Below are positions 3,183 to 60,268 of a DNA stretch of 64,000 nt, one piece after another. Under the pieces are notes generated by a model. That model worked only from the letters and a program-made list of their open reading frames with translations. It did no database searches and had not been told where the DNA came from. Position numbers and translations under genes: made by a program. The first letter of the stretch is position 1, and every line of letters begins with the position of its first letter. The stretch covers positions 14,661,868 to 14,725,867 of the forward strand of contig NC_089325.1 of assembly GCF_036669915.1 (NCBI RefSeq), written 5' to 3'. Origin of the DNA: Pocillopora verrucosa (lineage: Eukaryota > Cnidaria > Anthozoa > Scleractinia > Pocilloporidae).

Positions 3183-3296
3183 TTAATAAATATTTACATA
3201 TTCAGGAGCAGTTACTTGATTCACATATTCAATGTCGCTGTCTTCTGTTGATTTCACAAGGGAAGTGTACGTTCGGGAACCATTGTTTTCAGAGGT
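3183..3296 (-). CDS. Receptor A exon 8: distal cytoplasmic tail and stop
   Basis: Acceptor 'aatattttgcag', phase 0, 37 codons plus TAA. It encodes T-Y-T-S-L-V-K-S-T-E-D-S-D, then I-E-Y-V-N-Q-V and P-E-Y-V-N-I-Y at the C terminus. The tyrosines fit YxxL (Y-T-S-L) and YxN (Y-V-N-Q, Y-V-N-I), the latter a Grb2-type SH2 site in animals generally. The same exon is intact in B, C and D. Confidence 0.75.
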   Translation of the reverse strand, partial: TSENNGSRTYTSLVKSTEDSDIEYVNQVTAPEYVNIY

Positions 3297-6200
3297 CTGC
3301 AAAATATTCAGTTTTATATGTTAGAAAAATTGTGTTATTATCGACTTGGTAGGCTTGGTAATGCTGGAAAACACGAATAAAATCGCAGGTGCAAATAAAA
3401 AAAATTAAGGAAACCACAAACACTGCCAAGTGAAAATTAGATATTCATTCAAATACATTTCTAGTGAATGTTTTGTTAGACACTGCGCTTAAAACTCATT
3501 GCCTGTTTCCAAATGAGACCCCTTTACCCGCCATTCATAAAATGGTCATAATCAAACAGGTGAAGTTTGAAACAGATGTAAAGGAAAATAAGAATTTAAA
3601 TGGATGGAAAAAATTTGATGAAAAATAATGGTAAATGGATAAAACAATAAAAATTGTATAATATTAAAAGTTCTATGTCAAAAGACCACAGTCAAGTTCC
3701 GTCAGAGTAGCAATATAACTGCAAGGAAAGGGCCACATGCAGAGAACAAAGAGGAACAGCTAAAAATTGAAAAAAGGAAGTACAATGTATGGCACGTCCT
3801 TTGGTACCTTTTTGAAGACTCATATTGAGAACTCTAATTTTTTGTAAGTATAATTACCATCATTGACTCCGGAGACAGGGCGATGTACACACCCTCCTGT
3901 TGGATAAGCGGTTCAGTACGGAGCCTCTCAATCCCGGTTCCATTTCTCGAAGCAAACTCTGGCTGGGGACCAACATTCAAAGTATTTAACGCTAAGCTCT
4001 CTTGAAAGTCTCGTTGACTCCTGTAGAAAGAGAGAAAAATTAAAAACAAACAAATAAACAAACAAACGAAAAACAAAAAGAAAAGAGTGAAAAGGTCCAT
4101 GTTCAATATTAATGACTTCTAAAAATGGAATTAGACTGACGGCAAAAGTAAGACGAACAATCTTTTAAAACTTTAAACAACGAACAACGAGCAGCACCCC
4201 ATATTTATTTGGCGAATATCCATGAATGTGATACCTACTCAACTTATTAGAAAACCTAAGAGCATTCTTTGGAAACCTCTTTCTGTGGCCTTCAGTTACA
4301 AGGGCCCAAGCTCTCTAAAAAAAAGGATGATTTTACAATGCTTATTATAGGTATGTATTATAAGCCGATGTGATGTACTTAGCCTAGTGAGTCAGACATG
4401 GGGTTGCTCTCTTAGGAAATTTGACTCGAGTCCAGGTAGACCGTGTTGTAACGGTCGCCGAATTGCACGAGAAGTTCTTGCTGCGGGCTCGATTGGCTTC
4501 GCACTGGCCGGTTATTTGAAATTTTCGCTGAATTGTTCCCTCGAAGGCAGAACTTTTATGAAATATTTTTTGATAAACTTAAACAAAAAGTATCTGGCTT
4601 TAGTAATGCAGAGTCTTGAAGCAAAAAGACGTGGTTTAGTCTGAGAATCGCGCGATTTTAGAGAGAGTCAGTCCGTTGTTCTGGAGAAGCCTTTCTTCAT
4701 TTCATTCTTCTGAGTGTGGGTGATAATTGAATGAGAGCTCAGCTAAAATCCAACAAAATGGCTTAGAATCGCCACCAGAGAACAAAAATAACACAAACAA
4801 CACTGTCCAAAGGTTAGAGTTTATATGCCTTATTACTTACGGGGTTCCAGAACGGAGCCTAAACTCCCATGTAACGCATTATAATACTGTTCTCTTACAG
4901 ACAGCTTGGTTTCCCCGTAAACTAGTGTCAGTCGATCGCTTTCGTGAAATTTTCAAATTCACTATGGAATGAATTCGATAGAAATGACGAATTCTGCATC
5001 GATGGAGGTAAAAAAACTAGTTTCAGCCTATCAAAAGCGCTAATTAAAAGTTTGTGCTCCTAAGTATACCACCATGATCGTCTCAGCAATACTTATAAGC
5101 TCTCTTTTTCGAGCATTTCTGCTTCCAAGTAAGTAAATATGGGGATAGCACAAATCTATGATATTATATAGGCTCTTGTCCACTGGCTTTTGAGCGAATG
5201 CAGCTACATCGGCTGTCTGACTTTTGTCACTTTTTAAAGCATAGAGCCATCTGTATCTGCATTTCTGGGTAAGTTTTCTACCGTTCCAAAACGGCCGAAA
5301 AACTCTTTGTTACACTCAAAAACAAACCAAGTGAATAGTTAAAACGGATGTCACAGAGAAAATGTATTCCTTCTGAATAATTTCTATGTATTGTTTAAAA
5401 GATACACTCGGCCTTAATTTACATGGGCACCAGACTGAATAAATGACGAATAAAAGTGACATAGAAGCAACTTACGTTTTGACAGCTTTGTTTCTTGAGG
5501 CTGGTGGATGAAATCAAATACCACCGTTAGCAGCAAACACAGAAATAAAGAACTTTTGTTTTCTTCGAAAGGTTTCAATTTAGGTTGTTGGAAAAACAAA
5601 ATGACGCCAAACTTCCGATTTGTCGGCAGCATTTTAGTAGAACACATACATACACTTGGTACTTCGAGTTAACAAATTAATAACTTGACAGCCAAGAGGT
5701 AGTCGCGCAGCTTACTGGTGATGTGACCAACTATTTCCTGAGCACGGCATCTAAGACAGTTATTTTACTCGAATTTATTGCAGCGTAATTTCATGATCCC
5801 TTAAGTATAATTTTCTCCAGAACCATTCGGTTTTACAAAGCAGCATAACATTGAAGTCCAGGACAAATTAGACTTGGAGGGTGTAATTTATTTCTTCGCC
5901 ACAACTCGGTTTATCTTTCCGTTTTTTTTTTTTTAGTTATTTACCATTATTAATGTTTTCATCAATTATTTTTTCACCTTCTTTCACTACTTTTACTAAC
6001 ATTTAGTTTCTGTGCCAATTACATACATTTTCATCACTAGAATTGTTGTTGAATCATGACCGAATGATAAGTAAATCAAGCCTGCCCCTAAATTGCCTTG
6101 ATAATAGAGATGGCTTAAAGTCAAGTTGAATTTAAAGGAAAATGCAAATAAAGTCCGAGTACCTATTTCTTGTTGTTTTTTTCGAAGCAGTATCAAAACC

Positions 6201-9200
6201 ACAGCGAGGATGATCATGACTATAAACAACAATGCTGATAAAATAACGATTGCCAGATAAAGGGAAAAGCAGTCGGTGTCTTTCTTGAGGTCATCGACCT
6301 TAGTCACAACTGGAAATGTGGTCGTCGGGGAAGTTTGAACCGTCAACAAAGCTTAAAGAAATAAAAGTCGAGCTGATAATTAGGTTGACCTTACTGACAC
6401 AGGATAACACATGGAAAGAAATGGAAAGAGAGAGGGCTGCTTCCTAGTCTCGCATAGGGAATCCCTTAAGGTCATATCTTTGTAGAGCTTAAAAAATTAA
6501 AAGCTTTTCCCTATGAATAAGAAACCGCGGCTGAACTTTCTTTGTTGATTTCGCCGTAGTAGAAGTGAGGTCAGTTTTTTTAAGTCCCTGGATATAATGC
6601 GTTTAGAGTACTTAATTTTTAAGGTTTTTTGGGGTTTTTTTTTGGGGGGGGGGGGGGGGGGTTTTCTCAAAGCGTCTACATACATATCCTTAAAAGTGCT
6701 TCTGGCTGATATAACTGAATACTTGACCAAGTGACCAATCTTTAAACTAGCAAATGAACACAATATGGATATTGCTCGTCTACATATCTTAAAATCAACA
6801 ATCGATACATGATCGATCGCTATTTTACCTGATAAAGCATTGCTTTTATGTTCAGATGATGTTTTACCTTGTGTGGTAACAGCTTTTATCCCAGCTGATG
6901 TTTTAGGAGGACTTGTGCTTGCCGGAACAGAATGAACGAAGCAAATCCCTTGACAGGCGGCTGTTAAAGAAACATAACTACTGTCCCTACAACTATACAT
7001 TTCTCGAGTGATATTCCGGTACTCACTCTAGAGAAGTGTACTGTTTCTCAAGCTAACTCAATACCACGAATGAGTTAAAAAGTTTCTATGTCACGTCCCT
7101 ATAATTTACGAAGCTTTAAGTAAATATGCGACTGATCACGGTCTGCTTCCTGGATGGTGAAGGACTATCAGTGGTAAGGTGATCGCAATAGGCGGCCTTC
7201 GGAAAGAGTGGGTTGGGACAAGAAAGATAAAGGAAGGGGAAGGGTGAAGGGGGGGGGAGGGGGGGGCCGGTCTTTAGAAAATTCAAATTCGTGTTTCACA
7301 ACAGCGTATGACTAAAAAATATATTTTATTCTTTCTGGTACTGATCAATACCTGTTTCTTCCTCGCAAATCCATCCCCTTAGTAGGTTGCCCCTAACGGT
7401 ACTAAATGATCCTTTAAATCCTTTTGGATATTCCTTATGAATCAGCCCGAAAGTGTCAGTTGGGTCAGGGTTGTTGACATCTTTATACCATTTGTCAATA
7501 GTCACAGATTTACCATTGATCCAAGTCCATCTCTTTGTTGTTGAATTTTTTTCCAAGCCTATAAACCATTCATCAAATCGGTTGCCTGATTTGTTTTGAA
7601 TCTCATTTTTAATAAATTGCCATTCCTGCTCTGATTCCATCACTGCGAGTATCTTATTGTTGGATTTACAGGAGTCCTTTGCATTTGACCATGTCCATTG
7701 TCTTCTAATGAAGGTATAACACGAACATAGCTTCTCTCCATCTAGAATAACACAATTATTTAAAAGTTGGACTATTAATTAGTGAAAGTGAAGTGTTTCT
7801 GTGTCTGTGAGAGAATGCACCGTTTACTGAGTCAACTGTTATGTGCAGAAAATCAATTTTGATTTTTCTCGGAGACAATCGTTGTCATCATTTCCGGTCC
7901 CCCCTCTGAAGCGGCCCTTATTTACACAGAAGGAGGATCTGGGGAATAGCAACTATGTTTCAACCTTCTTGAAATTCACCCACATCCACAAGAAAGATGG
8001 GCACTAAAATTTAGATCATCTAAGACTCTCTCAAATCGTTATAATTCACATGATTTTCTTTTAAACGAGCAAGCAGTGTAATATACTCAAAGTCAGCAAA
8101 TTGTATAAATCCGTTAATTTTACCATGGAACACGCCTGGGTTGCGTTATACTTAACAAATGGAGAAGCCTTGACTGTGCCCTGTTCTGTTGTATAGCACG
8201 CAGGAAGCGGCTCGAGCACGAAAGAACTTCTTGAGTACCATCAAAGTCCACACTCTGCAATAATTTACATACTTTAATAGTTTGGCAGGTCGAATGTAAC
8301 ACTTTTGCCTGAAGTTCTTTTAGCCTCTCATACAGAATGTGGAGGTGAAATGTTCAGTAAAATCCGGCCGAATCGTGGCTCACAAAAACACGCAAGTTTT
8401 TCACATGACAAACAGTAAACAAACTGATGATGACAGAGCCGTAAAACTGCTCAAGGTGAGTTTTACGAGTGACCGACAGCCGAATTCACCGGAACATGAA
8501 GATTGCTCGGGATGACAGAGCCATAAAACTCGGTTGCAGTGACTGATGTGGCCTTCACCACTCAACGCATTGGAAAGGACATCAGAGAAAGCGCTTGGTT
8601 GTTCACTCAAAGGCGATCGATGTAATTTCTGAGGCTTGCTTCACTAGCGATCTCCGAGCTAGCCAAGTTGGACCTCAGCATGCTAGCAGTCGTTCTGATA
8701 CCGTCATGATTAGTATGAATTTTAACAGTTATGCCAGTTTGGCTATATTTATCATTCCTGTTTTGTTCTGTTTTGTTTTTGAACTCGAACTTTATAAACA
8801 ATACCAGTGTTAGCTGTGTTTGATTTTTATTACCATCCGCGAGCTTGCAATCTAACTGAGCGTGAAAACCTTCAAAACTCGGACTGTCCATTTCGTTTTC
8901 TCTTTGAGGATTTTCGTCTCTGCTCATGATATAATAACGTCAATTACGGCGCCTGGCATGTTTATAAACCTTTGTTTGGTTGTTCTGTTGCTACTTGCTC
9001 TATGCTCTATACTCTCATAGAGCACGCTCTTTCAACCAATGACAGCGCGCGTTATATCCGAACTTTATTATAAATTGCATGTCATGTGCAGTTTACCGTG
9101 ACGTCAATTGGTCACGCTAGTCACGCTATACATTACAATGGTTTTTCAACTTTATGAAGATCAGCGTACCTTCGCGATGAATTAAAAGCAAAGAGCGATA

Positions 9201-12200
9201 TAGCTACAACTGGATGAAAGCTAGAGGAGGATTTTGGGTTGTTAAACATGATTATTAAACCAATATTACACAGTATACAAAAATTTGATCATCAACGATT
9301 TCACACGCCAACTGCTGCTTCCTTCTCATTACAAATTATTTTATCCTCGTCCGTCGCTCGGCTTACAAATCTTGAAAAAAAAATTTCCCTATAAATCAAA
9401 AAGCATTTTATCCCGAGATTCTTTACTCAAGAATTCAACTGGAAAGTAAAGTGCTTGAGATTAAATCTAAAATCAAACGCCACTATCACGAGTAACCAAA
9501 TAATGAACCTCGACGTGCAATTAAGTGCTTGCACTTCATGAACTTCAGAATTATCTGATATTCCTCTCTCAATTACCTGTTCTCGACAGTACCAAATCAA
9601 CTCCGAAAAAAATCATTCATACTCCTTCACTAAATCCACCGTTCAGTGCTTTGGATGAGGATGTTTGAAACACAACGAAAGAGAAAGTTGCGCATGAGCT
9701 ACCAATTAAAGATTTCGACGCAATTTCCAGTCACTCAAGGTGTGACTTGGAAGGAAACCGCGGATGAATGACGAGAGATCACGCAATCAAGAACAGGCAA
9801 TTAGAAAAATTTAGAATGAGAAAAAAAAACACGAAGTGTTAATTTCAGCTTTTCTCTTTAGCTTTAGACTATCAAAGGCGAAGCAAAGTGTTTTGGTTTA
9901 ATTCAAGTAAATTAGGGGTGTATTGTGTTTGATACTTCGGTGCAATGTTCAAATCTTAAAAGCTTTGCCCGCGGGATTGAAGTCGACAAGGTCAGGTATT
10001 TTTTTGGAAACTTTACGCCATAGTTCAGGAAAAAGCTTCGACTCAAGATTTTTCCCCTTCATCCAACTTCTTGTCAATGGTCTTTTGGATGGCTTGTTAT
10101 ATTTTAACTGCAGTCAGTTTCAGATGCCTTCGGATCCGCTCAAGCATTAACATATTCAGGTGTGGGTATTTGATTCACAGATTCAATGTTGGTGTTAGCC
10201 GCTGAAAGTGACATTGATTAACTAAAAGCTGTTTTGAATCTTTCCAATTCACTTACTTTTTAACTTGAACATGCAAGAAGTGTAACATATCAAAAACAGT
10301 GAACAAAGTCAAAGTCAGTACATTGTAGAAATCCAACAATTTTCTCATGCAACACACCCGTACTGACGCGACTGACACAAAGGAAACAGCTTTAAAGCTA
10401 CAACTAGATAAAGGATAGTGAAGGAAGTAGGGTTCTTTGATATGTTTGTTAAACCAACATTATTCAATATACATAAATTTGATCACTACTATCCTGTAGT
10501 TCCTTCTTGGAAAAATACTATGCCATCCTCGTCCGTCGCTCTTGATAAATACTTCTTGTAATCGATCAAAACGCGTTCTATCCCGAGGTTTATCTTGCAA
10601 TTCTCTTGATTTACCGCGAAAGTGAAGCGTTTAATAAGTTTGATGATCAGAATAAATTTAAAATCAAGTGCAACTATCTAGAGAGCAACTAAATAATGAA
10701 ACTAGACAATCGATCCAGAGCTTGAGCTTTATGAACTTTGGAATTATCAACGATTCATTTCTCATGTAATAGTGTAGTTTGATCGTCCGGGTGAGTGAAG
10801 TCCTGAGAAGGACTGTTGTCAGAAGAAAAACAGAACAAAACAACAAAACAAAAAATCTCTAGTTTCTATTATTAGGTGTAGGTTTTTGATTGCGTCATAG
10901 TTTATTTAAAGAGGGCTGCAGGTTTTTCAGTAATTTAAATTACTGTTGAGTGTTACCCTAATAACATTAAGTATCTTCCTTACTTACTTACACGCTAATA
11001 ACGCAGATTTGAGCGCTTGTTGGTGTTTAGCGTACTAATAGGAATTCGAAGTAGCATTCATTCCATAGGTCAAGCCTTCAACAATTACAACGCCAACAGT
11101 TACCTGTTATGGTGGACGCCGTCGCCTTCGCTGATTTTTTCTCTAGACAAGAATATGAAAATTCACTTGTCATTGTAATATTGTGATTGTCTATCCATTT
11201 TCAAAGGGAGCGCAAAGCAATCGTAACAGTATATGGAAAAAAAGAGAAACCTATAAATAAATGAATAGATAGATATATCAAAATTATTCAGAAAACTGTT
11301 GAACAAGAAGTTCTTATTGTCTCACTATTAGGATCCATAGTGACTTCACGGTCTATCTAGTGTTTATACTATGTAATCTTTCAATATCTTCCATGGTGTA
11401 ACTGACTTCCGAGAGAAGGACTGGGCCGTAATACGACTGACCTATTCTTATTCTCAGTTTTGTGTAATGTGAATAAAGAGTCCATTACCTCCTCCACCTT
11501 TGAATTCACATATGAATCCTACTTGGGATAAGCGTGAAGTACAGCTGGCATCATTATAGCGCCCATAGTTATATTCATAATTTCCGTACATTAGCGCGCA
11601 ATTCTGTTTAACATTTTCGCCGTTAGGTTGTCCAGTTGCCCAGGGCCAATGTCCTTTATTGGACGCATTGACTGTGCTGTTATCGCTTAACCATCTCCAC
11701 ACTCCAGTTGATGTATCTTTCCTCAAACCTATGAAGTATTCAAAGGTATTCTCTTTTTGGATGGTTTGTTTCAGGAAGTTCCACTCCTCACGACTCTCAA
11801 TAGAAACAAGGTTATATCCAGACTGTTCGCATATTGTTTTGCTTCTTTCCCAATTGTACCAGTTACCATTGTTCATATAGAAAATGTAGCTGGAACCACT
11901 GAAGTTCTTCACGGGAACTGAATGTAGAATTGAACAAAGACACAACCTATCCATTAACTGTTGAACTTATCAGCCGATAACACTTAAGGAGCAAGTTTAG
12001 AAGCAGAAACAAACTGCTCCGACACTAATATTCTTTGGAATAAAATAGCATCCAAACCAACTTAGGTGAACGTTTATTCAACTGTATTCGAATGTAAACA
12101 GCTCTTTTTGGAATTAATTTATTGTTTTCCTTGTTTTGTTTTGTATTTTGCTTCTTGTTTTTTGTTGTGATGAACGTTTAAGTATCCATAATGTAGCGAA

Positions 12201-13506
12201 AAGAAACTTTAGAATTCGTGTTTTGTTTCCATATATAATTCAATCATTGCAGCTTTGTTTATTTTTATTATCGTTTTTTATCGTTCCATTGTTCATGTTT
12301 TTAATCATTAATCGGAGCTTATTGTACCATGTGATTTAGCTGTCAATCTAGCTTAAATAAGGAATCGCTTGCGTGACCGCTCAGTGGTCGGAGTATTCAG
12401 TATCGGAGTAGTTGGAGTTTTCCTTTTGGAGTCACCGGAGTTGCCTTTTCGGAGTTATTTGCTCACCTTTCTTTTCACGCAGGATCAGACGTGAGTTACC
12501 AATGTACATATTGATCGCCTTTTGCCTTTCTTGACTTATATTTTGCTTGTAATTTCTTTAGCCTTGTTTCTAATTACGCAATCATAATTGGTACGCAGTT
12601 TTCACCGCATGTGTGCGATATTTGGTTTGTGAATAAAGCTGAGAAAATCAAGGTTTGCATGCTGTGGTTGACACTTACTGTTCCCTACACTTGGGTACGC
12701 GACATTTTTCGTTTTTTATTTGTTGTCTTTCGTTTGTTATGCGATTAGCTTCATACGAAGAATATTTGCCCCATTTTCAAAGTTCCACTCCTTACCGATC
12801 TGTCGAATAAGTATTCTTCTTAATACATTTTAGGTTTATTTTAATGTTGGATCCTAAGCGCTAATGTGTGGAACAAGCACAATGCCTGTTGCGCGTTAAT
12901 ATTATTGAACTATTTCTTCTACCAGCTCCCTTGAGCAACACAAAACCTTAATTTCGGCTTTTTTTTTTTTTTACCAAAAATGGCTGCATCGATTGTAAAT
13001 TTGAAAAACAACTGATTTTTTCAGTTTCGTGGTGCCTATGTTTCGAAGATAAATTCTACGACTGTTATAAAATTCGAAAACGAAAACACAGCGACTAAAC
13101 GTACAGTTTTTGTCCGAACTCTGCGACTGCTGAACGACAACCAACTGACACGACCGAATCGAATATTAATTGGTTAAGACTTAAATTCTAGCATGCAGTG
13201 TTTTGTTCGGCCGTTCCAACGGACGGCGTTAATGTTAATGACCAAGCATTCGCCGGAACAGTCTGAATATATTGCCATATCTAAAGTGTGGTAGGCACTA
13301 TTTGTCCAGCAAATTATAGTATCATCCTTTTTTCTCTTAACAAGCAAGCATACTTAATAATCAGCTTTCAAAAAGAAAAAAGAAAAAGAAGAAAAAAACA
13401 TGTAGATGTTTGTCTAAAGATTGTACTTACCAGCATCACTCTTTACGTAAATGGTTCTAGTTAGCACAAGAAGAGCAGAATATATCAGAAAACACACTTT
13501 CTCCAT
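3183..13506 (-). CDS. Receptor A: two-CTLD type I membrane receptor with tyrosine-motif tail (complete, 8 coding exons)
   Basis: Coding exons are 13431-13506, 11489-11917, 7352-7741, 6829-7002, 6163-6351, 5476-5500, 3858-4020 and 3183-3296. All have GT-AG borders and matching phases, and sum to 1560 nt (519 aa). Seen: signal peptide 1-25; CTLD1 about 30-165 with four canonical cysteines (55, 132, 151, 162), W-P-W at 116-118, Q-P-N at 122-124 and Y-N-D at 146-148; CTLD2 about 174-297 without the Ca2+ site; Ser/Thr-rich stalk 299-356; one transmembrane helix about 385-412 followed by R-K-K; tail with Tyr473, 492, 506, 515 and 519. Known: CTLDs bind sugars or proteins, and YxxL and YxN motifs recruit SH2 proteins once phosphorylated. 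Inferred: a surface pattern-recognition receptor that signals. Start ATG at 13506 opens the signal peptide. Least certain junction: exon 3 to exon 4. Confidence 0.8.
3858..4020 (-). CDS. Receptor A exon 7: proximal cytoplasmic tail
   Basis: The acceptor is pyrimidine-rich ('ctctctttctacag') and the donor is GATG followed by GTAATT; phase 2 to 0, 163 nt. It encodes S-Q-R-D-F-Q-E-S-L and ends E-G-V-Y-I-A-L-S-P-E-S-M-M. The Y-I-A-L motif (Tyr473) fits YxxL/YxxPhi. B and C read Y-T-A-L and D reads Y-T-T-L, so the tyrosine and the +3 Leu are kept. Confidence 0.8.
4378..4640 (+). repeat. Possible tRNA-derived SINE-like block in intron 6
   Basis: 'tagcctagtgag' resembles a pol III A box and 'gactcgagtcc', about 35 bp downstream, resembles a B box. 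The block is conserved in C (from 40853) and D (from 56918) and absent from B, whose intron 6 lacks roughly 870 bp here. The 85-codon open frame across it is probably incidental. Confidence 0.3.
5234..5264 (-). CDS. Possible alternative terminal exon giving a short tail
   Basis: A good acceptor ('gaaaacttacccag') is followed in phase 2, as left by the microexon, by N-A-D-T-D-G-S-M-L and a stop. Used instead of exons 7-8 it would yield a tail with no tyrosines. The frame and length are kept in B (28196-28226), C (41675-41705) and D (57774-57804), with TAA in A and D but TGA in B and C. This is a prediction from sequence only. Confidence 0.3.
5476..5500 (-). CDS. Receptor A exon 6: 25-nt microexon
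   Basis: Bounded by 'catccaccag' and GTAAGT, it encodes A-S-R-N-K-A-V-K plus two bases. It changes intron phase from 1 to 2, which is exactly the phase needed by exon 7. It is present with intact borders in cassettes A, B, C and D. Confidence 0.7.
6163..6351 (-). CDS. Receptor A exon 5: transmembrane helix
   Basis: 63 codons, phase 1 to phase 1; acceptor 'atttctttaag', donor ATAG followed by GTACTC. It encodes a short T/S/P segment, an acidic and basic linker (D-D-L-K-K-D-T-D-C), a hydrophobic stretch of about 28 residues and a stop-transfer R-K-K-Q-Q. Orientation by the positive-inside rule is N-out, C-in. Confidence 0.85.
6643..6661. repeat. Long G run in intron 4
   Basis: A near-pure G tract of about 18 bases lies in intron 4 of receptor A, with a shorter interrupted run in D (59182-59198). 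B and C have a T run and only GGG at the same place. Another G-rich stretch lies in intron 3 of A (7249-7266) and in the other copies (30188-30201, 43651-43666, 59787-59799). Confidence 0.7.
6829..7002 (-). CDS. Receptor A exon 4: Ser/Thr-rich stalk
   Basis: 58 codons, phase 1 to phase 1. It begins with E-M-Y-S-C-R-D-S-S-Y-V and holds C-Q-G-I-C, then a Ser/Thr/Pro/Lys-rich stretch ending N-A-L-S. Donor TCAG followed by GTAAAA is good. The acceptor chosen ('cactcgag') is not pyrimidine-rich but is the only one found that keeps both phase and open frame. Probably an O-glycosylated membrane-proximal spacer. Confidence 0.65.
7352..7741 (-). CDS. Receptor A exon 3: degenerate C-type lectin domain 2
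   Basis: The 390-nt exon is phase 1 to phase 1; acceptor 'ttattctag', donor ACAG followed by GTATTG. It keeps the CTLD frame: W-T-W-S-N-A-K-D-S-C, E-W-F-I-G-L, R-W-T-W-I-N-G and G-W-I-C-E. It lacks the N-C-A and WND cysteine/asparagine block; N-P-D-P-T-D stands in the EPN region. The outer disulfide (Cys193 to Cys294) can form, the inner one cannot. Ca2+-dependent sugar binding is therefore unlikely and protein recognition more plausible. Confidence 0.85.
8607..8927 (-). other. Short conserved open frame in repeat R (unknown)
   Basis: 106 codons starting M-S-R-D-E-N-P-Q-R-E-N-E. D has the same frame (61122-61442). The C copy (48362-48961) reads on to 199 codons but its first codon is GTG instead of ATG. 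In A and D the continuing sequence is in another frame (8401-8610), showing an indel. No family is recognised. It may be a decaying gene fragment carried by the repeat. Confidence 0.3.
8940..9140. promoter_or_regulatory. Promoter-like stretch with CRE octamer and inverted repeat
   Basis: This stretch holds 'gtttataaac', a perfect 8-bp inverted repeat (GCTCTATG at 8997-9004, CATAGAGC at 9016-9023), 'aaccaatgacagcgcgcg' (CCAAT-like) and a full TGACGTCA at 9099-9106. The same octamer occurs at 31398, 44918, 46135 and 61614 in other R units. It sits between a minus-strand open frame and plus-strand short ORFs, so a divergent promoter is possible. Function is inferred from motifs only. Confidence 0.3.
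11489..11917 (-). CDS. Receptor A exon 2: C-type lectin domain 1
   Basis: One exon encodes a full CTLD of 143 codons, phase 1 to phase 1. The acceptor is a pyrimidine-rich tract ending 'acattcag' and the donor is GGAG followed by GTAATG. Seen: Y-F-I-G-L in the WIGL position, G-H-W-P-W, Q-P-N in the EPN/QPD position, N-C-A, Y-N-D in the WND position and G-F-I-C-E at the end. Q-P-N is neither the standard mannose (EPN) nor galactose (QPD) motif, so sugar preference cannot be assigned. This is the only CTLD1 exon in the window. Confidence 0.9.
11918..13430. other. Intron 1 of receptor A
   Basis: 1.5 kb, AT-rich, with no recognised gene. A stretch at about 12330-12710 has short 'cggagt' repeats and an AATAAA near 12633 and looks unlike its surroundings, but no flanking duplication was found to support a solo LTR. 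Confidence 0.5.
13431..13506 (-). CDS. Receptor A exon 1: signal peptide
   Basis: ATG GAG AAA opens a 25-residue hydrophobic leader (M-E-K-V-C-F-L-I-Y-S-A-L-L-V-L-T-R) ending near S-D-A. The exon closes with GCTG followed by GTAAGT, leaving phase 1. Its last G plus the first TT of exon 2 makes a Val codon. No second copy of this exon was found elsewhere in the window. Confidence 0.8.
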
Positions 13507-15899: not shown

Positions 15900-16000
15900 T
15901 GAGGGTCTCCAATAGGGTTCCTCAATCCCGCGATCCCGGCTAAAATTTTCTCTTAATCCCGTAATCCCGATGGTTTATATCGGTGAATCCCGATCCCGTT
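15900..16000. repeat. Short 'aatcccg' repeat cluster
   Basis: The heptamer 'aatcccg' or close variants (cgatcccg, taatcccg, gaatcccg) recur about seven times in 100 bp, directly before a LINE fragment. Confidence 0.6.
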
Positions 16001-27010: not shown

Positions 27011-27124
27011 TTAATAAGCATTTACATATTCAGCAGCGGTTATTTGATTCACATATTCAATGTCGCTGTCTTCTGTTGATTTCACAAGGGAAGTGTACAT
27101 TCGGGAACCATCGTTTTCAGAGGT
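27011..27124 (-). CDS. Cassette B exon 8 (tail, stop)
   Basis: 114 nt, open to TAA. Y-T-S-L and Y-V-N-Q are kept; the last motif reads Y-V-N-A instead of Y-V-N-I. Confidence 0.7.
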   Translation of the reverse strand, partial: TSENDGSRMYTSLVKSTEDSDIEYVNQITAAEYVNAY

Positions 27125-31850: not shown

Positions 31851-32087
31851 ATGAACTTTAGAATTATCAAATATTCCTCTCTCACCTACCTGATCTCGAT
31901 AGAAACAAATCAACTCCGAGAAGTATTAATACATACATATTCCGCACTAAATCCATCGTTCAAAGCTTTGGATGAGGATATTTATAACGCCACGAAAGAG
32001 AAAGTTGCGCTCGAACGACTAATTGAGATTTCGGCGCAATTTCCAGTCAGTCTAGGTGTGACTTGGGAGGAAACAGCGAAAGTTTGA
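31851..32087 (+). other. Repeat R ORF-b, unknown
   Basis: About 78 codons from ATG: M-N-F-R-I-I-K-Y-S-S-L-T, later K-E-K-V-A-L-E-R-L-I-E-I and Q-F-P-V-S. The frame is kept in four R units (also 33083, 45370, 46587) and broken in at least six others (about 2100, 9540, 10730, 26390, 39010, 49420). No family recognised; coding status uncertain. Confidence 0.3.
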
Positions 32088-33316: not shown

Positions 33317-33576
33317 AACGTGGACCTATTTCCATAATGGAAGCCTCTACTTCCTTTTCAATCCAAACGACCATGTTGTGTACTGTGAAGTGTGTTAAGG
33401 TAAACTGCGAGATAATTTTTCTCTAAAGATATCAAAATATAATTTACCAATCATTTTTTACAAAGGCAAGTCATTTTGGTAGTAAGTTTTGTAATTTGAA
33501 GCGTCGGATGCGTAAGATATCAGATTCAATCTTCAAGTATCAATCCCGTACAAACTAGACTCATGAAGTCTTTAAA

Positions 33577-33837
33577 CCATTTGTCAATAGTCACAGATTT
33601 ACTATTGATCCGAGTCCATCTCTTTGTTGTTGAATTTTTTTCCAAGCCTATAAACTATTCATTACTTGGGTTGCCTGATTTGTTTTGAATCTCACTTTTA
33701 ATAAATTGCCATTCCTGCTCTGATTCCATCACTGCTAGTGTTTTATTGTTGGATTTACAGGAGTCCCTTGCATTTGGCCATGTTCATTGTCTTCTTTTGA
33801 AGGTATAACACAAACATAGCCTCTCTCCATCTAGAAG
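33577..33837 (-). pseudogene. Truncated exon 3 (CTLD2) fragment right of cassette B
   Basis: The 5' two thirds of a CTLD2 exon, including its 'ag' acceptor and C-S-N/K region, with an in-frame TAG where the E-W-F-I-G-L tryptophan should be. The 3' part is missing. A sister fragment with an extra deletion lies at 47552-47777. Confidence 0.75.
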
Positions 33838-39650: not shown

Positions 39651-39764
39651 TTAATAAGCATTTACATATTCAGCAGCAGTTATTTGATTCACATATTCAA
39701 TGTCGCTGTCTTCTGTTGATTTCACAAGGGAAGTGTACGTTCGGGAACCATCGTTTTCAGAGGT
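39651..39764 (-). CDS. Cassette C exon 8 (tail, stop)
   Basis: 114 nt to TAA; R-T-Y-T-S-L, I-E-Y-V-N-Q-I, A-A-E-Y-V-N-A-Y. Confidence 0.7.
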   Translation of the reverse strand, partial: TSENDGSRTYTSLVKSTEDSDIEYVNQITAAEYVNAY

Positions 39765-45369: not shown

Positions 45370-45630
45370 ATGAACTTTAGAATTATCAAATATTCCTCTC
45401 TCACTTACCTATTCTCAACAGAAACAAATCAACTCCGAGAAGTATTAATACATACATATACCGCACTAAATCGATCGTTCAAAGCTTTGGATGGGGATGT
45501 TTACCACGCCACGGAAGAGAAAGTTGCGCTCGAACGACTAATTAAGATTTCGACGCAAATTCCGGTCAGTCAAGGTGTGACTTGGAAGGAAACAGCGAAA
45601 GAAAGGGGTCACGCTTCAAGGAAAAGGTGA
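45370..45630 (+). other. Repeat R ORF-b, third copy
   Basis: 86 codons from ATG, the longest version; ends E-R-G-H-A-S-R-K-R. Confidence 0.3.
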
Positions 45631-46823: not shown

Positions 46824-47551
46824 CAAGAGATCACGCTTCAAGGAAAATGTAAATCAAGAACAGGCAATGAGAAAAATTTAGAATGACGAAAAACAACATT
46901 AAATGTTAATGTCAGCTTTTCTCTTTAGCTTTAGATTATTAAAAGAGAAACAAAGCGTTCTGGTTTAATTCAAGTAAAGCAAAGGGATATTGGGTTGTAC
47001 AGCATGCACTGTGTTATGGAAAATTGCGATAGGGTACTTCTTTCCGAAAAGTCTCGTAAAAATTCGGAACTAAGATAGATTAAATTTTTATGTCACATTT
47101 GATCGATGGCAAATTTGTCACGCCATGTTCGACAACTATCGTTGCACGACATTTTCAATCAATAAGGGAAGATGTCGCGATCTACAGGAGACATACAGCT
47201 CTATAGCGACAACTAAATGAAAGTTTTTCACAGTTCAAAATTGGAGAAAGTCGAACTTCAAGCAAAAACGTTGCAACGGATCAATAAAACGTGGACCTAT
47301 TTCCATAATGGAAGCCTCTACTTCCTTTTCAATCCAAACGACCATCGTTGTGTACTGTGAAGTGTGTTAAGGTAAACTGCGAGATAATTCTTCTCTAAAG
47401 ACATCAAAATATAATTTACCAATCATTTTTTACAAAGGCAAGTCATTTTGGTGGTAAGTTTTGTAATTTGAAGCGTCGGATGCGTAAGATATCAGATTCA
47501 GTCTTCAAGTATCAATCCCGTACAAACTAAACTCATGAAGTCTTTAAACCA

Positions 47552-47777
47552 TTTGTCAATAGTCACAGATTTACCATTGATCCAAGTCCATCTCTTTGTT
47601 CAAACTATTCATTACTTGGGTTGCCTGATTTGTTTTGAATCTCATTTTTAATAAATTGCCATTCCTGCTCTGATTCCATCACAGCTAGTGTTTCATTGTT
47701 GGATTTACAGGAGTCCCTTGCATTTGGCCATGTCCATTTTCTTCTTTTGAGGGTATAACACAAACATAGCCTCTCTC
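47552..47777 (-). pseudogene. Truncated exon 3 (CTLD2) fragment right of cassette C
   Basis: Sister of 33577-33837 with a further internal deletion around the W-I-N-G/F-I-G-L region and the same Trp-to-stop change. Confidence 0.75.
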
Positions 47778-48265
47778 CATCTAGAAGAACACAATTACTT
47801 AAAAGTTGGACTATTAATTAGTGAAAGTGAAGTGTGTCTCTATGTGTCTGTGAGAGAATGCACCGTTTACTGGGTCAACTGTTATGTGCAGAAAATCAAC
47901 TTTGATTTTTCTCGGAGACAATCGTTATCATCATTTCCCCCCTCTGAAGCAGACCTAATTTACACAGAAGGAGGATCTGGAGAATAGCAACCATGTTTCA
48001 ACCTTCTTGAAATTCACCCACATCACAAGAAAAATGGGCGCTAAAAGTTAGATTATCTCAAAAGACTCTCTCAAATCGTTATAATTCACATGACTTTCTT
48101 TTAAACAAGCAAGCAGTGTAATATACTAAAAAGTCAGCACATTGTATAAATCCGTTAATTTTTCCATGGAACACGCTTGGGTTGCGTTATACTTAACAAA
48201 TAGAAAAGCCTTGACTGTGCTCTGTTCTGTTATAAAGCACGCACGAAGCGGCTCGAGCACGAAAT

Positions 48266-52195: not shown

Positions 52196-52199
52196 CTCA

Positions 52200-53130: not shown

Positions 53131-53136
53131 ATTTTT

Positions 53137-53169
<33 letters not shown>

Positions 53170-53171
<2 letters not shown>

Positions 53172-53840: not shown

Positions 53841-54149
53841 TGGACGTTCTATACTTTTTTAATGATCTTTCTGTGATTTTTATATATTTCTATTAATTAG
53901 CTTTTATATAATGTATATTTTTTATTTTTTATTACTATATATATAATTTTTTTCTAGGAGATCCTTAACATAGGGTTAACCTCTGGGTTTCTTTTGTCTT
54001 AAGAACAGGGCTTGTTATAAAAAGTACTTGTTATTTTGAAATAAAGTATTGTTTTGAAAACGGCCCGAGAAACCCGGGAAACCGGCTGTTGGGGGCTAAA
54101 ATTTATATTAATTATCTAAAACTGTTTGGAATCTTTTCAATACACTTAG

Positions 54150-55720
54150 TTTTCACTTGAACAAGCAAGAAGTGTAATATGTTAAAAACACTGAATCAAA
54201 CGAATGTCAGTACATTGTGTAAATCCATCAATTTTCTCATGCAACACCCATATACTGACGCGATATACACAAAGGAAACAGCTTTACAGCTACAACTAGA
54301 TGAAAGCTAGTGAAAGATGTAGGGTTTTTTGATTCGATCGTTAAACCAACATTATTCAATATACATAAATTTGATCATTACTATCATCACTAATTCCTTC
54401 TCCAAAAAAAGAAATTATGCCATCCTTGTTCGTCGCTCTTGATAAATTCTTGTTATAATCGGTCAAAACGCGTCTTACCCTGCGGTTTATCTCGCAATTC
54501 TCTTGATTCACCGCGAAAGTGAAGTGTTTAATCAGTTTGATGATCGAAATAAATCTAAAATCGATCACCACTTTCTAGAAAACAACTAAATATTGAAACC
54601 AGGCATTCGATCAAGAGCTTGAGCTTCATGAACTTTAGAATCATCAACGTTTCCTTACACATATACTTCCTCCTGACAGTAACAAATCTACTCCAAGAAG
54701 TATCAATACCAGCACCTTCGCTAAATCGTTCAATACTTTAGATGAGGATATCTGAAACGCCACAAAAGTGAATTAAAGGTATGCTTGGACGACCAGTTAA
54801 GATAAAGACGCAATTTCCGGTCATTCAACTCACTTTCCTGTCTCTATCTTATTCGTGTATATATGGTCTGTGGCCTTTTGGATAGCTTGATATATTTTAA
54901 CCGTATTTATTTTAACTGCAATTAGTTTAGAATGCATTTGGAACCAATAAGATAATAGCCTTGATAAAACTACTTGATCATTCAAATTCCATAATTTTCA
55001 TGTATTTACTTATCAATCAATTTACCGTCCATATACATTGAACATAAGCTAAAGGACCAATTAGCTCAAAGCTCGATTTAACTAGCTCAGTGTAAACGGA
55101 AGATTTCGTCTTTCTTTCGTGGCTTTGCAGGGACAAGTACTAAAAATATTTAATTTGCATTAGTTATATATTCCTGTATTAGCTCCAACCGTCAAATGAA
55201 CAATTAACTCAAGCGTCAACATACTCAGGAGCAGTTATTTACATTTACATATTCAATTTCTGGCAAGGGTAGATATTTGACCCAAAAGTTATCAAATATT
55301 TGGATGAATCAAAAAGTTAAAAAAAAAGTCATTTATTTGTAATGAGAAGCTGTCAATCAAATTTGACTGATGTTTGCGTCGTGCATTCGTTAAGAATGTA
55401 ACGATATGCATACAATCTCTCAGAGTAATCAGTTAAATACCATTGCGGTGATAGTTTCATACATTTACGTATTTTGAAGCGATTTCTCTGGGGCATCGGG
55501 GCCAGGGCATCCATCATCCCCCGGAAATAACCAAGAAGAAACCATTTGCTCTGTTTGAGTAGGCAAATTTTAACTGAAATCGGTGAGATGGCATGTAGCA
55601 TCTGGTGCTCTCGTGGACCGGCACACCCTCAAATCAGCTGGCAGCAGCTATACCAGCTCTGTAGGATAATTTTACCTCAGCTTCTTAGGATTAGCGCTAA
55701 TCGTCTTACGAACGATCCTT
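54150..55720. repeat. Repeat R unit and R2 left of cassette D
   Basis: Colinear with 1630-3183. No gene recognised. Confidence 0.65.
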
Positions 55721-55833
55721 TAATAAATATTTACATATTCAGGAGCAGTTACTTGATTCACATATTCAATGTCGCTGTCTTCTGTTGATTTCACAAGGGA
55801 AGTGTACGTTCGGGAACCATTGTTTTCAGAGGT
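55720..55833 (-). CDS. Cassette D exon 8 (tail, stop)
   Basis: 114 nt to TAA, identical in protein to A. Confidence 0.7.
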   Translation of the reverse strand, partial: TSENNGSRTYTSLVKSTEDSDIEYVNQVTAPEYVNIY

Positions 55834-58800
55834 CTGCAAAATATTCAGTTTTATATGTTAGAAAAATTGTGTTATTATCGACTTGGTAGGCTTGGTAATG
55901 CTGGAAAACACGAATAAAATCGCAGGTGCAAATAAAAAAAAATTAAGGAAACCACAAACACTGCCAAGTGAAAATTAGATATTCATTCAAATACATTTCT
56001 AGTGAATGTTTTGTTAGACACTGCGCTTAAAACTCATTGCCTGTTTCCAAATGAGACCCCTTTACCCGCCATTCATAAAATGGTCATAATCAAACAGGTG
56101 AAGTTTGAAACAGATGTAAAGGAAAATAAGAATTTAAATGGATGGAAAAAATTTGATGAAAAATAATGGTAAATGGATAAAACAATAAAAATTGTATAAT
56201 ATTAAAAGTTCTATGTCAAAAGACCACAGTCAAGTTCCGTCAGAGTAGCAATATAACTGCAAGGGAAGGGCCACATGCAGAGAACAAAGAGGAACAGCTA
56301 AAAAATTGAAAAAAGGAAGTACAATGTATGGCACGTCCTTTGGTACCTTTTTGAAGACTCATATTGAGAACTCTAATTTTTTGTAAGTATAATTACCATC
56401 ATTGACTCCGGAGACAGGGTGGTGTATACACCCTCCTGTTGGACAAGCGGTTCAGTACGGAGCCTCTCAATCCCGGTTCCATTTCTCGAAGCAAACTCTG
56501 GCCGGGCATCAACATTCAAAGTATTTAACGCTAAGCTCTCTTGAAAGTCTCGTTGACTCCTGTAGAAAGAGAGAAAAATTAAAAACAAACAAATAAACAA
56601 ACAAACGAAAAACAAAAAGAAAAGAGTGAAAAGGTCCATGTTCAATATTAATGACTTCTAAAAATGGAATTAGACTGACGGCAAAAGTAAGACGAACAAT
56701 CTTTTAAAACTTTAAACAACGAACAACGAGCAGCACCCCATATTTATTTGGCGAATATCCATGAATGTGATACCTACTCAACTTATTAGAAAACCTAAGA
56801 GCATTCTTTGGAAACCTCTTTCTGTGGCCTTCAGTTACAAGGGCCCAAGCTCTCTAAAAAAAAAGGATGATTTTACAATGCTTATTATAGGTATGTATTA
56901 TAAGCCGATGTGATGTACTTAGCCTAGTGAGTCAGACATGGGGTTGCTCTCTTAGGAAATTTGACTCGAGTCCAGGTAGACCGTGTTGTAACGGTCGCCG
57001 AATTGCACGAGAAGTTCTTGCTGCGGGCTCGATTGGCTTCGCACTGGCCGGTTATTTGAAATTTTCGCTGAATTGTTCCCTCGAAGGCAGAACTTTTATG
57101 AAATATTTTTTGATAAACTTAAACAAAAAGTATCTGGCTTTAGTAATGCAGAGTCTTGAAGCAAAAAGACGTGGTTTAGTCTGAGAATCGCGCGATTTTA
57201 GAGAGAGTCAGTCCGTTGTTCTGGAGAAGCCTTTCTTCATTTCATTCTTCTGAGTGTGGGTGATAATTGAATGAGAGCTCAGCTAAAATCCAACAAAATG
57301 GCTTAGAATCGCCACCAGAGAACAAAAATAACACAAACAACACTGTCCAAAGGTTAGAGTTTATATGCCTTATTACTTACGGGGTTCCAGAACGGAGCCT
57401 AAACTCCCATGTAACGCATTATAATACTGTTCTCTTACAGACAGCTTGGTTTCCCCGTAAACTAGTGTCAGTCGATCGCTTTCGTGAAATTTTCAAATTC
57501 ACTATGGAATGAATTCGATAGAAATGACGAATTCTGCATCGATGGAGGTAACAAAACTAGTTTCAGCCTATCAAAAGCGCTAATCAAAAGTTTGTGCTCC
57601 TAAGTATACCACCATGATCGTCTCAGCAATACTTATAAGCTCTCTTTTTCGAGCATTTCTGCTTCCAAGTAAGTAAATATGGGGATAGCACAAATCTATG
57701 ATATTATATAGGCTCTTGTCCACTGGCTTTTGAGCGAATGCAGCTACATCGGCTGTCTGACTTTTGTCACTTTTTAAAGCATAGAGCCATCTGTATCTGC
57801 ATTTCTGGGTAAGTTTTCTACCGTTCCAAAACGGCCGAAAAACTCTTTGTTACACTCAAAAACAAACCAAGTGAATAGTTAAAACGGATGTCACAGAGAA
57901 AATGTATTCCTTCTGAATAATTTCTATGTATTGTTTAAAAGATACACTCGGCCTTAATTTACATGGGCACCAGACTGAATAAATGACGAATAAAAGTGAC
58001 ATAGAAGCAACTTACGTTTTGACAGCTTTGTTTCTTGAGGCTGGTGGATGAAATCAAATACCACCGTTAGCAGCAAACACAGAAATAAAGAACTTTTGTT
58101 TTCTTCGAAAGGTTTCAATTTAGGTTGTTGGAAAAAAAAAATGACGCCAAACTTCCGATTTGTCGGCAGCATTTTAGTAGAACACATACATACACTTGGT
58201 ACTTCGAGTTAACAAATTAATAACTTGACAGCCAAGAGGTAGTCGCGCAGCTTACTGGTGATGTGACCAACTATTTCCTGAGCACGGCATCTAAGACAGT
58301 TATTTTACTCGAATTTATTGCAGCGTAATTTCATGATCCCTTAAGTATAATTTTCTCCAGAACCATTCGGTTTTACAAAGCAGCATAACATTGAAGTCCA
58401 GGACAAATTAGACTTGGAGGGTGTAATTTATTTCTTCGCCACAACTCGGTTTATCTTTCCGTTTTTTTTTTTTTAGTTATTTACCATTATTAATGTTTTC
58501 ATCAATTATTTTTTCACCTTCTTTCACTACTTTTACTAACATTTAGTTTCTGTGCCAATTACATACATTTTCATCACTAGAATTGTTGTTGAATCATGAC
58601 CGAATGATAAGTAAATCAAGCCTGCCCCTAAATTGCCTTGATAATAGAGATGGCATAAAGTCAAGTTGAATTTAAAGGAAAATGCAAATAAAGTCCGAGT
58701 ACCTATTTCTTGTTGTTTTTTTCGAAGCAGTATCAAAACCACAGCGAGGATGATCATGACTATAAACAACAATGCTGATAAAATAACGATTGCCAGATAA

Positions 58801-60268
58801 AGGGAAAAGCAGTCGGTGTCTTTCTTGAGGTCATCGACCTTAGTCACAACTGGAAATGTGGTCGTCGGGGAAGTTTGAACCGTCAACAAAGCTTAAAGAA
58901 ATAAAAGTCGAGCTGATAATTAGGTTGACCTTACTGACACAGGATAACACATGGAAAGAAATGGAAAGAGAGAGGGCTGCTTCCTAGTCTCGCATAGGGA
59001 ATCCCTTAAGGTCACATCTTTGTAGAGCTTAAAAAATTAAAAGCTTTTCCCTATGAATAAGAAACCGCGTCTGAACTTTCTTTGTTGATTTCGCCGTAGT
59101 AGAAGTGAGGTCAGTTTTTTTAAGTCCCTGGATATAATGCGTTTAGAGTACTTAATTTTTAAGGTTTTTTGGGGTTTTTTCGGGGGGGGGGGGTGGGGTT
59201 TTCTCAAAGCGTCTACATACATATCCTTAAAAGTGCTTCTGGCTGATATAACTGAATACTTGACCAAGTGACCAATCTTTAAACTAGCAAATGAACACAA
59301 TATGGATATTGCTCGTCTACATATCTTAAAATCAACAATCGATACATGATCGATCGCTATTTTACCTGATAAAGCATTGCTTTTATGTTCAGATGATGTT
59401 TTACCTTGTGTGGTAACAGCTTTTATCCCAGCTGATGTTTTAGGAGGACTTGTGCTTGCCGGAACAGAATGAACGAAGCAAATCCCTTGACAGGCGGCTG
59501 TTAAAGAAACATAACTACTGTCCCTACAACTATACATTTCTCGAGTGATATTCCGGTACTCACTCTAGAGAAGTGTACTGTTTCTCAAGCTAACTCAATA
59601 CCACGAATGAGTTAAAAAGTTTCTATGTCACGTCCCTATAATTTACGAAGCTTTAAGTAAATATGCGACTGATCACGGTCTGCTTCCTGGATGGTGAAGG
59701 ACTATCAGTGGTAAGGTGATCGCAATAGGCGGCCTTCGGAAAGAGTGGGTTGGGACAAGAAAGATAAAGGAAGGGGAAGGGTGAAGGGGGGGGGGGGGGT
59801 GAGTTCAGTCTTTAGAAAATTCAAACTCGTGTTTCACAACAGCGTATGACTAAAAAATATATTTTATTCTTTCTGGTACTGATCAATACCTGTTTCTTCC
59901 TCGCAAATCCATCCCCTTAGTAGGTTGCCCCTAACGGTACTAAATGATCCTTTAAATCCTTTTGGATATTCCTTATGAATCAGCCCGAAAGTGTCAGTTG
60001 GGTCAGGGTTGTTGACATCTTTATACCATTTGTCAATAGTCACAGATTTACCATTGATCCAAGTCCATCTCTTTGTTGTTGAATTTTTTTCCAAGCCTAT
60101 AAACCATTCATCAAATCGGTTGCCTGATTTGTTTTGAATCTCATTTTTAATAAATTGCCATTCCTGCTCTGATTCCATCACTGCGAGTATCTTATTGTTG
60201 GATTTACAGGAGTCCTTTGCATTTGACCATGTCCATTGTCTTCTAATGAAGGTATAACACAATAACAC
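55720..60268 (-). CDS. Receptor cassette D: exons 4-8 intact, exon 3 damaged, 5' exons beyond the window
   Basis: Exons 59366-59539, 58703-58891, 58016-58040, 56397-56559 and 55720-55833 match A almost base for base. Tail motifs are Y-T-T-L, Y-T-S-L, Y-V-N-Q and Y-V-N-I. Exon 3 (3' border at 59890) has lost 23 bp covering its splice acceptor and the first codons. Because exons 2, 3 and 4 all join in phase 1, skipping exon 3 would give an in-frame receptor with only CTLD1. Base 64000 aligns with A's 11480, so D's exon 2 should start within about 10 bp past the right edge. Confidence 0.6.
56397..56559 (-). CDS. Cassette D exon 7 (tail, Y-T-T-L)
   Basis: 163 nt, open. Reads V-D-A-R-P-E-F as in B and C, where A has V-G-P-Q-P-E-F. 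Confidence 0.7.
58016..58040 (-). CDS. Cassette D exon 6 (microexon)
   Basis: 25 nt, same as A. Confidence 0.6.
58703..58891 (-). CDS. Cassette D exon 5 (transmembrane)
   Basis: 189 nt, same protein as A. Confidence 0.75.
59366..59539 (-). CDS. Cassette D exon 4 (stalk)
   Basis: 174 nt, open, same as A in the coding part. Confidence 0.6.
59890..60268 (-). pseudogene. Cassette D exon 3 (CTLD2) without splice acceptor
   Basis: The body is nearly identical to A's exon 3, but near 60258 the bases 'gaacatagcttctctccat' and the following 'ctag' present in A at 7722-7744 are missing. The next usable AG ('ccttcattag') would enter in phase 2 and shift the frame. One of the two leading cysteines (C-S-C) is lost with the deletion. 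Confidence 0.75.

Follow-up and report, generated by a model that had tools for sequence, protein, structure and literature searches.

The question raised by a 64,000-nucleotide stretch of the Pocillopora verrucosa genome (C14:14661868-14725867, the whole of which is here called the window; assembly of 353.4 Mb in 52 contigs) is what kind of receptor is encoded by the C-type-lectin-like domain (CTLD) exons and tyrosine-rich tail exons clustered on its minus strand. A first-pass annotation of this DNA had proposed a family of two-CTLD receptors with multi-tyrosine tails, represented by one complete and three partial copies. We find a family of predicted type I receptors that have a stalk, a membrane helix and a tyrosine-rich tail in common and that occurs both in the window and approx. 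1 Mb away on the same chromosome. With a probability of roughly 0.6, we favor the reading that a family of tandem genes encodes single-pass type I receptors with exchangeable heads, usually a single CTLD, placed over a conserved stalk-helix-tail block, the tail of which would recruit a Grb2-type adaptor. The exons themselves are real and under constraint, and the two-CTLD architecture proposed earlier is right only in part.

The copies compared were A, B, C and D in the window and relatives outside it, including Z, F, G, L029, L030, L031, L032, L033 and L034 (250 kb of DNA across loci, 13 kb of it N, and approx. 5 kb of L030 likewise N; exons may be missed there). All 5 CTLD frames in the window scored above the cut-off of Pfam Lectin_C (PF00059; 22.6 bits), which places them in the CTLD superfamily:

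11454-11963, minus strand: CTLD frame (CTLD1, copy A; Pfam, 58.4 bits)
7326-7778, minus strand: CTLD frame (CTLD2, copy A; Pfam, within 39.3-41.5 bits)
30550-31014, minus strand: CTLD frame (CTLD2, copy B; Pfam, within 39.3-41.5 bits)
44086-44526, minus strand: CTLD frame (CTLD2, copy C; Pfam, within 39.3-41.5 bits)
59864-60274, minus strand: CTLD frame (CTLD2, copy D; Pfam, within 39.3-41.5 bits)

Stalk, membrane-helix and tail exons were present in 4/4 window copies with conserved splice dinucleotides; the splice sites of E3 to E8 (exons numbered as in copy A) are kept in copies A to D, with the exception of the E3 acceptor of D, which falls inside a 23-bp deletion. The last tail exon (E8) yielded 20 matches at E 1 or better (20/20 candidates scored), all on the minus strand of C14 and 9 of them at 1e-11 or better, and this placement on one chromosome upholds the proposal that predicted type I receptors with CTLDs and multi-tyrosine tails form a clustered family. 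For the CTLD2 exon, 22 genome matches at 1e-15 or better were obtained (best 150 of 214 candidates scored); among the matches listed, 10 were near full-length CTLD2 exons with at least 64% identity, the damaged exon of D included, and all 10 were on the minus strand of C14. The genome is rich in CTLDs in general, as the Pfam cut-off was passed by 150/150 scored frames (best 150 of 403 candidates), with matches on contigs numbered 1 to 14.

Over E3 to E8 (1013 bp), no indels separated copy A from copy B or from copy C, compared to 27 and 26 indels, respectively, in the introns (3546 bp). The chance of stop-free exons under random substitutions was 0.008 for B, 0.03 for C, 0.037 for Z and 0.001 for L029; in both the indel and the stop comparisons A is the starting point and the copies are not independent. 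Exon anatomy, phases, the shared tail and this coding constraint are, like the dead leader, the head combinations and the exon remnants described below, read directly from the DNA.

The usual form of the gene was found to carry one CTLD, i.e., a leader, CTLD2, stalk, helix and tail in 7 exons encoding 358-359 amino acids. A separate leader exon ('MDLVKVYVLIILGVDLLLSR'-like, with a phase-1 donor) is located approx. 1 kb upstream of CTLD2 in B, C, Z and L029, and the single-CTLD models of L029 (358 aa), Z (358 aa) and B (359 aa) have 7 exons each, identical E3 to E8 lengths and splice dinucleotides in place. Copy C gives a model like that of B, with the start ATG changed to ATC and an in-frame ATG six codons later. 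The exons of these two copies are as follows:

31890..31956, minus strand: B leader exon (MDLVRNMYVLILLGVDLFLSRS; sequence)
30588..30977, minus strand: B CTLD2 exon (Pfam; gene model)
29767..29898, minus strand: B stalk exon (gene model)
29111..29299, minus strand: B membrane helix exon (gene model)
28438..28462, minus strand: B 25-nt exon (gene model)
27693..27855, minus strand: B tail exon E7 (gene model)
27011..27124, minus strand: B tail exon E8 with stop (gene model)
45409..45475, minus strand: C leader exon, ATC for ATG, in-frame ATG six codons on (sequence)
44112..44501, minus strand: C CTLD2 exon (Pfam; gene model)
43229..43360, minus strand: C stalk exon (gene model)
42577..42765, minus strand: C membrane helix exon (gene model)
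41913..41937, minus strand: C 25-nt exon (gene model)
40333..40495, minus strand: C tail exon E7 (gene model)
39651..39764, minus strand: C tail exon E8 with stop (gene model)

The presence of an own leader exon upstream of CTLD2 indicates that B, and perhaps C as well, should be regarded as an ordinary gene instead of a partial copy; B looks like an ordinary complete one-headed gene. The earlier count of one complete and three partial copies therefore does not hold, since complete single-CTLD genes can be read in B, Z and L029, as well as in C apart from its ATC start. Tandem repeats of approx. 1.2 kb are located upstream of CTLD2 (31380-33308 in B and 44900-47335 in C); each of the two regions contains two copies of the CTLD2 leader, possibly representing alternative first exons or promoters. 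Peptides of the type 'MRKLLDFYN..' were considered as leaders and rejected, as they are repeat-borne and also occur 3' of genes.

Copy A, the copy previously described as complete, was modelled with two CTLDs and showed the following features:

13431..13506, minus strand: E1, CTLD1-unit leader exon (MEKVCFLIYSALLVLTRTIYVKSDA), phase-1 donor (leader scan; 12/12 scored genome matches on C14)
11498..11917, minus strand: E2, CTLD1 exon, QPN triplet, phase 1-1 (PF00059, 58.4 bits; splice sites)
10146..10217, minus strand: last-tail-exon remnant (E8b type) in the CTLD1-CTLD2 gap (tblastn)
9577..9639, minus strand: dead leader exon of the CTLD2 gene, GTG for ATG, in-frame TGA (sequence)
7352..7741, minus strand: E3, CTLD2 exon, phase 1-1 (Pfam; splice sites)
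6829..6960, minus strand: E4, Ser/Thr-rich stalk exon (splice sites)
6163..6351, minus strand: E5, membrane helix exon (splice sites)
5476..5500, minus strand: E6, exon of 25 nt, shifting the phase from 1 to 2 and also conserved in copies B, C and D (splice sites)
3858..4020, minus strand: E7, tail exon with YIAL (splice sites)
3183..3296, minus strand: E8, last exon with YTSL, YVNQ, YVNI and stop (splice sites; genome matches)

In this model the leader, both CTLDs, the stalk, the helix and the tail exons are intact and their phases (1, 1, 1, 1, 1, 2 and 0 at successive junctions, from the sequence) match, as had been claimed; the model has 8 exons and 502 amino acids, not the 519 amino acids and eight junctions given before, and the additional exon implied by those figures was not found and is not needed in the model of A. 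A junction joining the helix exon straight to E7 was rejected because the phases misfit, which the conserved 25-nt exon resolves. As both heads are phase 1-1, an E1-E2-E3-E4 transcript of A would be in frame, and a two-CTLD transcript from this copy is possible. A leader scan around the dead CTLD2 leader of A found nothing beyond E1 except the 13-residue MIFFGVDLVLSRT.

The CTLD1 leader had 12 scored genome matches, all on C14; 11 of these were within 14.67-14.99 Mb, and the twelfth, in L031, contains a stop. The homology of A to the CTLD1 unit, as present at F and G, ends near window position 11065; the F and G versions continue from leader and CTLD1 into Ser/Thr-rich repeats and a frame encoding a different membrane helix ('NLVVIVVVLLAIFILLLVVAFGLMFF'). 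CTLD1 leaders and CTLD1-like exons are arrayed in the region C14:14.82-14.99 Mb (F, G and others), mostly on the plus strand, with the second helix type at F and G. Copy A looks like an unusual fusion, in which a leader and CTLD1 unit, truncated from another receptor type, was placed upstream of a CTLD2 gene with a dead leader. Its origin would be most simply explained by a deletion fusing the 5' half of a CTLD1-type gene with the CTLD2 gene that comes next.

We weighed against this the view that the two-CTLD receptor (leader-CTLD1-CTLD2-stalk-helix-tail) is the functional unit and that B, C and D are partial copies of it. The intact exons and matching phases of A speak for this view, as does the diverged but open CTLD1 of D just past the window end; moreover, since the CTLD2 leader of A is dead, a functional A needs the CTLD1 leader. 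We nevertheless consider it quite improbable, as B, Z and L029 are complete without CTLD1, L031 has CTLD1 without CTLD2, F and G continue from CTLD1 into a different helix frame, D has lost its CTLD2 acceptor, and in A the CTLD1-unit homology stops short, with a tail-exon remnant in the gap. Among the loci examined, the exons for a two-CTLD protein are intact in A alone; a two-CTLD protein as the family type is not supported.

Copy D is a near-twin of A, including a CTLD2 leader that is dead in the same way (GTG for ATG, in-frame TGA):

59890..60259, minus strand: D CTLD2 exon, without 23 bp including the acceptor (alignment; one exon indel in D)
59366..59497, minus strand: D stalk exon (alignment)
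58703..58891, minus strand: D membrane helix exon (alignment)
58016..58040, minus strand: D 25-nt exon (alignment)
56397..56559, minus strand: D tail exon E7 (alignment)
55720..55833, minus strand: D tail exon E8 (alignment)

A transcript of D that skips the damaged E3 would be in frame. Over window positions 613-11480, A and D are 98.4% identical; above approx. 11 kb, 2-9 sites per 100 differ outside E2, and the latter half of CTLD1 forms a peak with 15-19 per 100. Differences affected 34/200 sites in the second half of E2 compared to 19/567 in the flanks (P = 1.5e-9; the flank bins were picked after the profile was seen). Synonymous divergence was also raised at the peak (0.147), so that selection and conversion from a divergent paralogue are equally likely explanations, and positive selection was rejected as the sole cause. 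The idea that A and D arose solely through a duplicate in the assembly was likewise rejected, given the divergence outside E2 above approx. 11 kb; the sequences clearly point to recent duplication of, or conversion between, A and D below approx. 11 kb.

It may also be hypothesized that A and D are decaying pseudogenes that arose through deletion between one CTLD1 and one CTLD2 gene, and that function is confined to B, C, Z, L029 and copies like them. The dead CTLD2 leaders of A and D, the lost acceptor in D, the tail remnant in the gap and the truncated CTLD1 unit would be expected under such decay. Every exon of A is open, however, the tail exons are open in A and D alike, and the CTLD1 exons of the two copies, which differ at 50/417 bases, have equal length and no stop (chance of no stop 0.055); we thus regard decay of both copies as somewhat unlikely.

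Head exchange under a shared tail is suggested by relatives outside the window and by exon remnants. The modelled head exons are all phase 1-1, so that heads can be exchanged. L031 combines a CTLD2-type leader with CTLD1, an FN3 domain (PF00041, 60.1 bits) and the common helix and tail, with phases that fit by eye; the stalk exon E4 was not detected there in the cross-locus comparison. In L030 (C14:13652001-13662000), FN3 pieces (2/3 tested pass the cut-off) are located upstream of common-tail exons E7 and E8; the two are separated by the approx. 5 kb of N and the helix was not seen there, and membership in one gene is therefore only possible. At L034, a CTLD-like exon that is 31-35% identical to the CTLD1 exons occurs with the second helix type, and the tail is longer, with two exons each of the E7-like and E8-like kinds. 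For L032 and L033, no ectodomain was seen in the DNA examined.

Copies B, C and Z each contain the two halves of an older CTLD2 exon, interrupted near codons 87-93, with fresh leader copies and an intact CTLD2 in between; the older N-terminal halves group with the CTLD2 of A (support 0.97). The remnants in the window are:

33568..33828, minus strand: older CTLD2 exon remnant of B, N-terminal 87 codons with stops (sequence, tree)
30258..30368, minus strand: older CTLD2 exon remnant of B, C-terminal (sequence, tree)
47540..47778, minus strand: older CTLD2 exon remnant of C, N-terminal part with stop (sequence, tree)
43761..43871, minus strand: older CTLD2 exon remnant of C, C-terminal (sequence, tree)

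One assembly thus shows apparent steps of recombination, i.e., an inserted leader-CTLD segment and a fusion by deletion.

By simple hydropathy, the models have a hydrophobic leader and one helix in the order leader-CTLD-helix-tail, from which we infer a type I topology. By eye, the helices have no charged residue, and pairing with a charged adaptor is therefore not expected. Calcium-dependent sugar binding by CTLDs involves an EPN- or QPD-type triplet, an ND motif and four conserved cysteines. CTLD1, inspected by eye, has four cysteines, YND and a QPN/EPN-like triplet, which varies among copies (QPN in A; EPN in D, G, L031 and L034; QPS in F); in CTLD2, neither the triplet nor the inner pair of cysteines is present. 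CTLD1 thus possibly carries a predicted calcium/sugar site and CTLD2 probably does not, protein or lipid binding being more likely for the latter.

A YxxL motif was found in 9/9 aligned E7 copies, and Y[T/A]SL, Y[V/M]NQ and a final YVN were each found in 8/8 aligned E8 copies (an alignment that omits D, which is identical to A in E8). YVN occurs three times in the last exon of L033 and four times in that of L034, the tails of which are located outside the window (contig coordinates):

13622734-13624286: L033 tail, two E7-like and two E8-like exons, YVNQ array in the last (sequence)
13792388-13793996: L034 tail, two E7-like and two E8-like exons, YVNQ array in the last (sequence)

Receptors that recruit Grb2 do so through phosphorylated YxN, to which its SH2 domain binds. 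The phosphorylated peptide pYVNV is a tight ligand of the Grb2 SH2 domain (PMC2888578), and the YVN motifs suggest recruitment of a Grb2-type SH2 adaptor.

Several results weigh against the favored reading. The immunoreceptor tyrosine-based activation motif (ITAM) has the form YxxL/I-x(6-12)-YxxL/I, which the two YxxL motifs of A, separated by 15 residues, do not fit; the inhibitory counterpart (ITIM, [SIVL]xYxx[ILV]) had no match by eye in the aligned E7 and E8 copies, including those of L033 and L034. YVN is missing from the first E8-like exons of L033 and L034; in the last exons of these two loci, YTST and TCKS replace the YTSL of the other copies. Approx. 22/35 columns of the E8 alignment are invariant, so that tyrosine conservation is not exceptional and was rejected as proof of function. 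The tail is also not wholly constant, as E7 differs between A and D at 7 sites, 6 of them nonsynonymous, inside the 98.4%-identical block. Ratios of nonsynonymous to synonymous divergence (dN/dS) were near 1 in the CTLD exons (0.60-1.47 for E2, 10 pairs; 0.57-1.33 for E3, 10 pairs among A, B, C, Z and L029), values that fit fast change, are no proof of selection and alone cannot separate diversification from relaxed constraint. The splice junctions are predicted ones; in A, reading on through the E2 donor meets a stop within 16 codons, and this stop and the tail-exon remnant in the E2-E3 gap make a separate short transcript ending past E2 possible.

The spacing of the YxxL motifs would also suit tails that are endocytic rather than signalling, with YxxL as an AP-2 sorting signal in scavenger receptors like those of the mannose receptor family, and YTAL and YTSL fit Yxx-hydrophobic sorting signals. 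YVN, for which such sorting has no need, is present in all 8 aligned E8 copies and is repeated in the final exons of both L033 and L034, and a purely endocytic role seems unlikely to us. Ligand-driven phosphorylation followed by Grb2-type recruitment would be the most likely mechanism, with endocytosis as its rival. Under the exchangeable-head reading, phase 1-1 heads (CTLD1, CTLD2 and FN3) and their leaders would have been recombined over one conserved stalk-helix-tail block, and the heads, if expressed at the surface, would bind glycans or proteins outside the cell. Receptor clustering would then lead a cytosolic kinase to phosphorylate the tail tyrosines; YVN sites would recruit a Grb2-type SH2 adaptor, and YxxL sites may serve SH2 binding or endocytosis, resulting in uptake or signalling. 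Copy A, if spliced through its putatively deletion-made fusion, would yield a two-CTLD receptor.

Other features of the window include a patatin-like phospholipase frame between copies A and B (22668-23636; PF01734, 30.4 bits), downstream of which there are further open frames (region 19245-23636, minus strand). Retroelement-like open frames were identified by eye at 15987-18320 (plus strand), 34625-39491, 50253-55099 and 52579-53839 (plus strand); among 9 such frames scanned, the sole match was 17979-18317 to RVT_1 (16.7 bits, below the cut-off). The stretches 34625-39491 and 50253-55099 are 94.7% identical, indicating that this DNA was duplicated together with the receptor array.

Among known receptors, Dectin-1 and CLEC-2 are type II CTLD proteins with a single hemITAM that signal via YxxL in their own tail; the coral family resembles them in joining a CTLD to an own-tail YxxL and differs in its leader-CTLD-helix-tail order, which sets it apart from these type II hemITAM receptors. 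Members of the mannose receptor family are type I proteins with tyrosine sorting motifs, ricin-type and FN2 domains and 8-10 CTLDs; like L-selectin, they are type I CTLD proteins, the organization predicted for the family described here. The extra domains of this group and of L-selectin are FN2, ricin-type, EGF and sushi, and to our knowledge neither has YVN tail repeats. In the Pfam scan of the 502-aa model of A, Lectin_C alone passed a cut-off, and FN2, ricin-type, EGF and sushi domains were not detected. Sequence matches of the CTLD1 of A in the PDB include L-selectin (1.1e-12) and the PLA2 receptor (2.1e-11), the latter being also the best match of the CTLD2 of L029 (3.5e-14). The Alr proteins of Hydractinia are immunoglobulin-superfamily-like; only CTLD or FN3 heads, and no Ig-like ectodomain, were found in the models made here.

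Alr and the Botryllus FcoR proteins are similar to the coral family in being clustered, diverse receptors with tyrosine motifs, and FcoR, moreover, has the type I topology predicted here and may have just the Yxx[ILV] core of a motif; they differ in the Ig/sushi, not CTLD, ectodomains of FcoR and in the ITIM and hemITAM motifs reported there, for which the coral family gave no match (PMC12065747). The statement that a CTLD and a tyrosine tail in one type I protein are unusual was too strong, as L-selectin is a type I CTLD protein (PMC5820395) and transmembrane CTLD proteins have been counted in many cnidarians, with CTLD-fibronectin combinations also reported (PMC8260672). These cnidarian proteins resemble the present family in having a CTLD with a membrane helix or with fibronectin domains; that report gives proteome-wide domain counts, and its main text, as far as available, describes no shared tyrosine tail or head exchange and mentions ITAM 0 times. 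In Pocillopora cf. effusa, the C-type-lectin-like orthogroup OG0000316 is abundant and tandem duplication is pervasive (PMC10236652); this expansion is likened to ours by description only, and the available part of that source has no analysis of tails or heads. The amphioxus FrLRR, a receptor made by readthrough of two genes that acts with Grb2 in phagocytosis, provides a precedent for a readthrough receptor at copy A, with other domains and no cytoplasmic tail (PMC10199209). Among the matches listed, no title or abstract opening reports exchangeable CTLD heads on a common YVN tail. Judged by those matches, transmembrane CTLD proteins and a Pocillopora CTLD expansion were already known, and a shared-tail family with changing heads would be new.

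How anthozoans distinguish symbionts, pathogens and neighbours at the cell surface is an open question, and functional work on cnidarian CTLD proteins was, as of 2021, said to be limited to mannose-binding-lectin homologues (PMC8260672). A lineage-specific immune system, as suggested in the first-pass annotation, is possible. A broader and still speculative proposal, which we consider rather unlikely, is an anthozoan germline system of a constant tail and exchangeable heads, in which CTLD and FN3 cassettes and their leaders would be moved by insertion, deletion and conversion above an unchanging stalk-helix-YVN tail to form a lineage-specific repertoire (for symbionts, pathogens or colony self) with Grb2-type signalling independent of ITAM and ITIM. 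A compact cluster in which the tail is largely fixed and the heads change would provide a defined candidate set for the study of signalling in anthozoan recognition.

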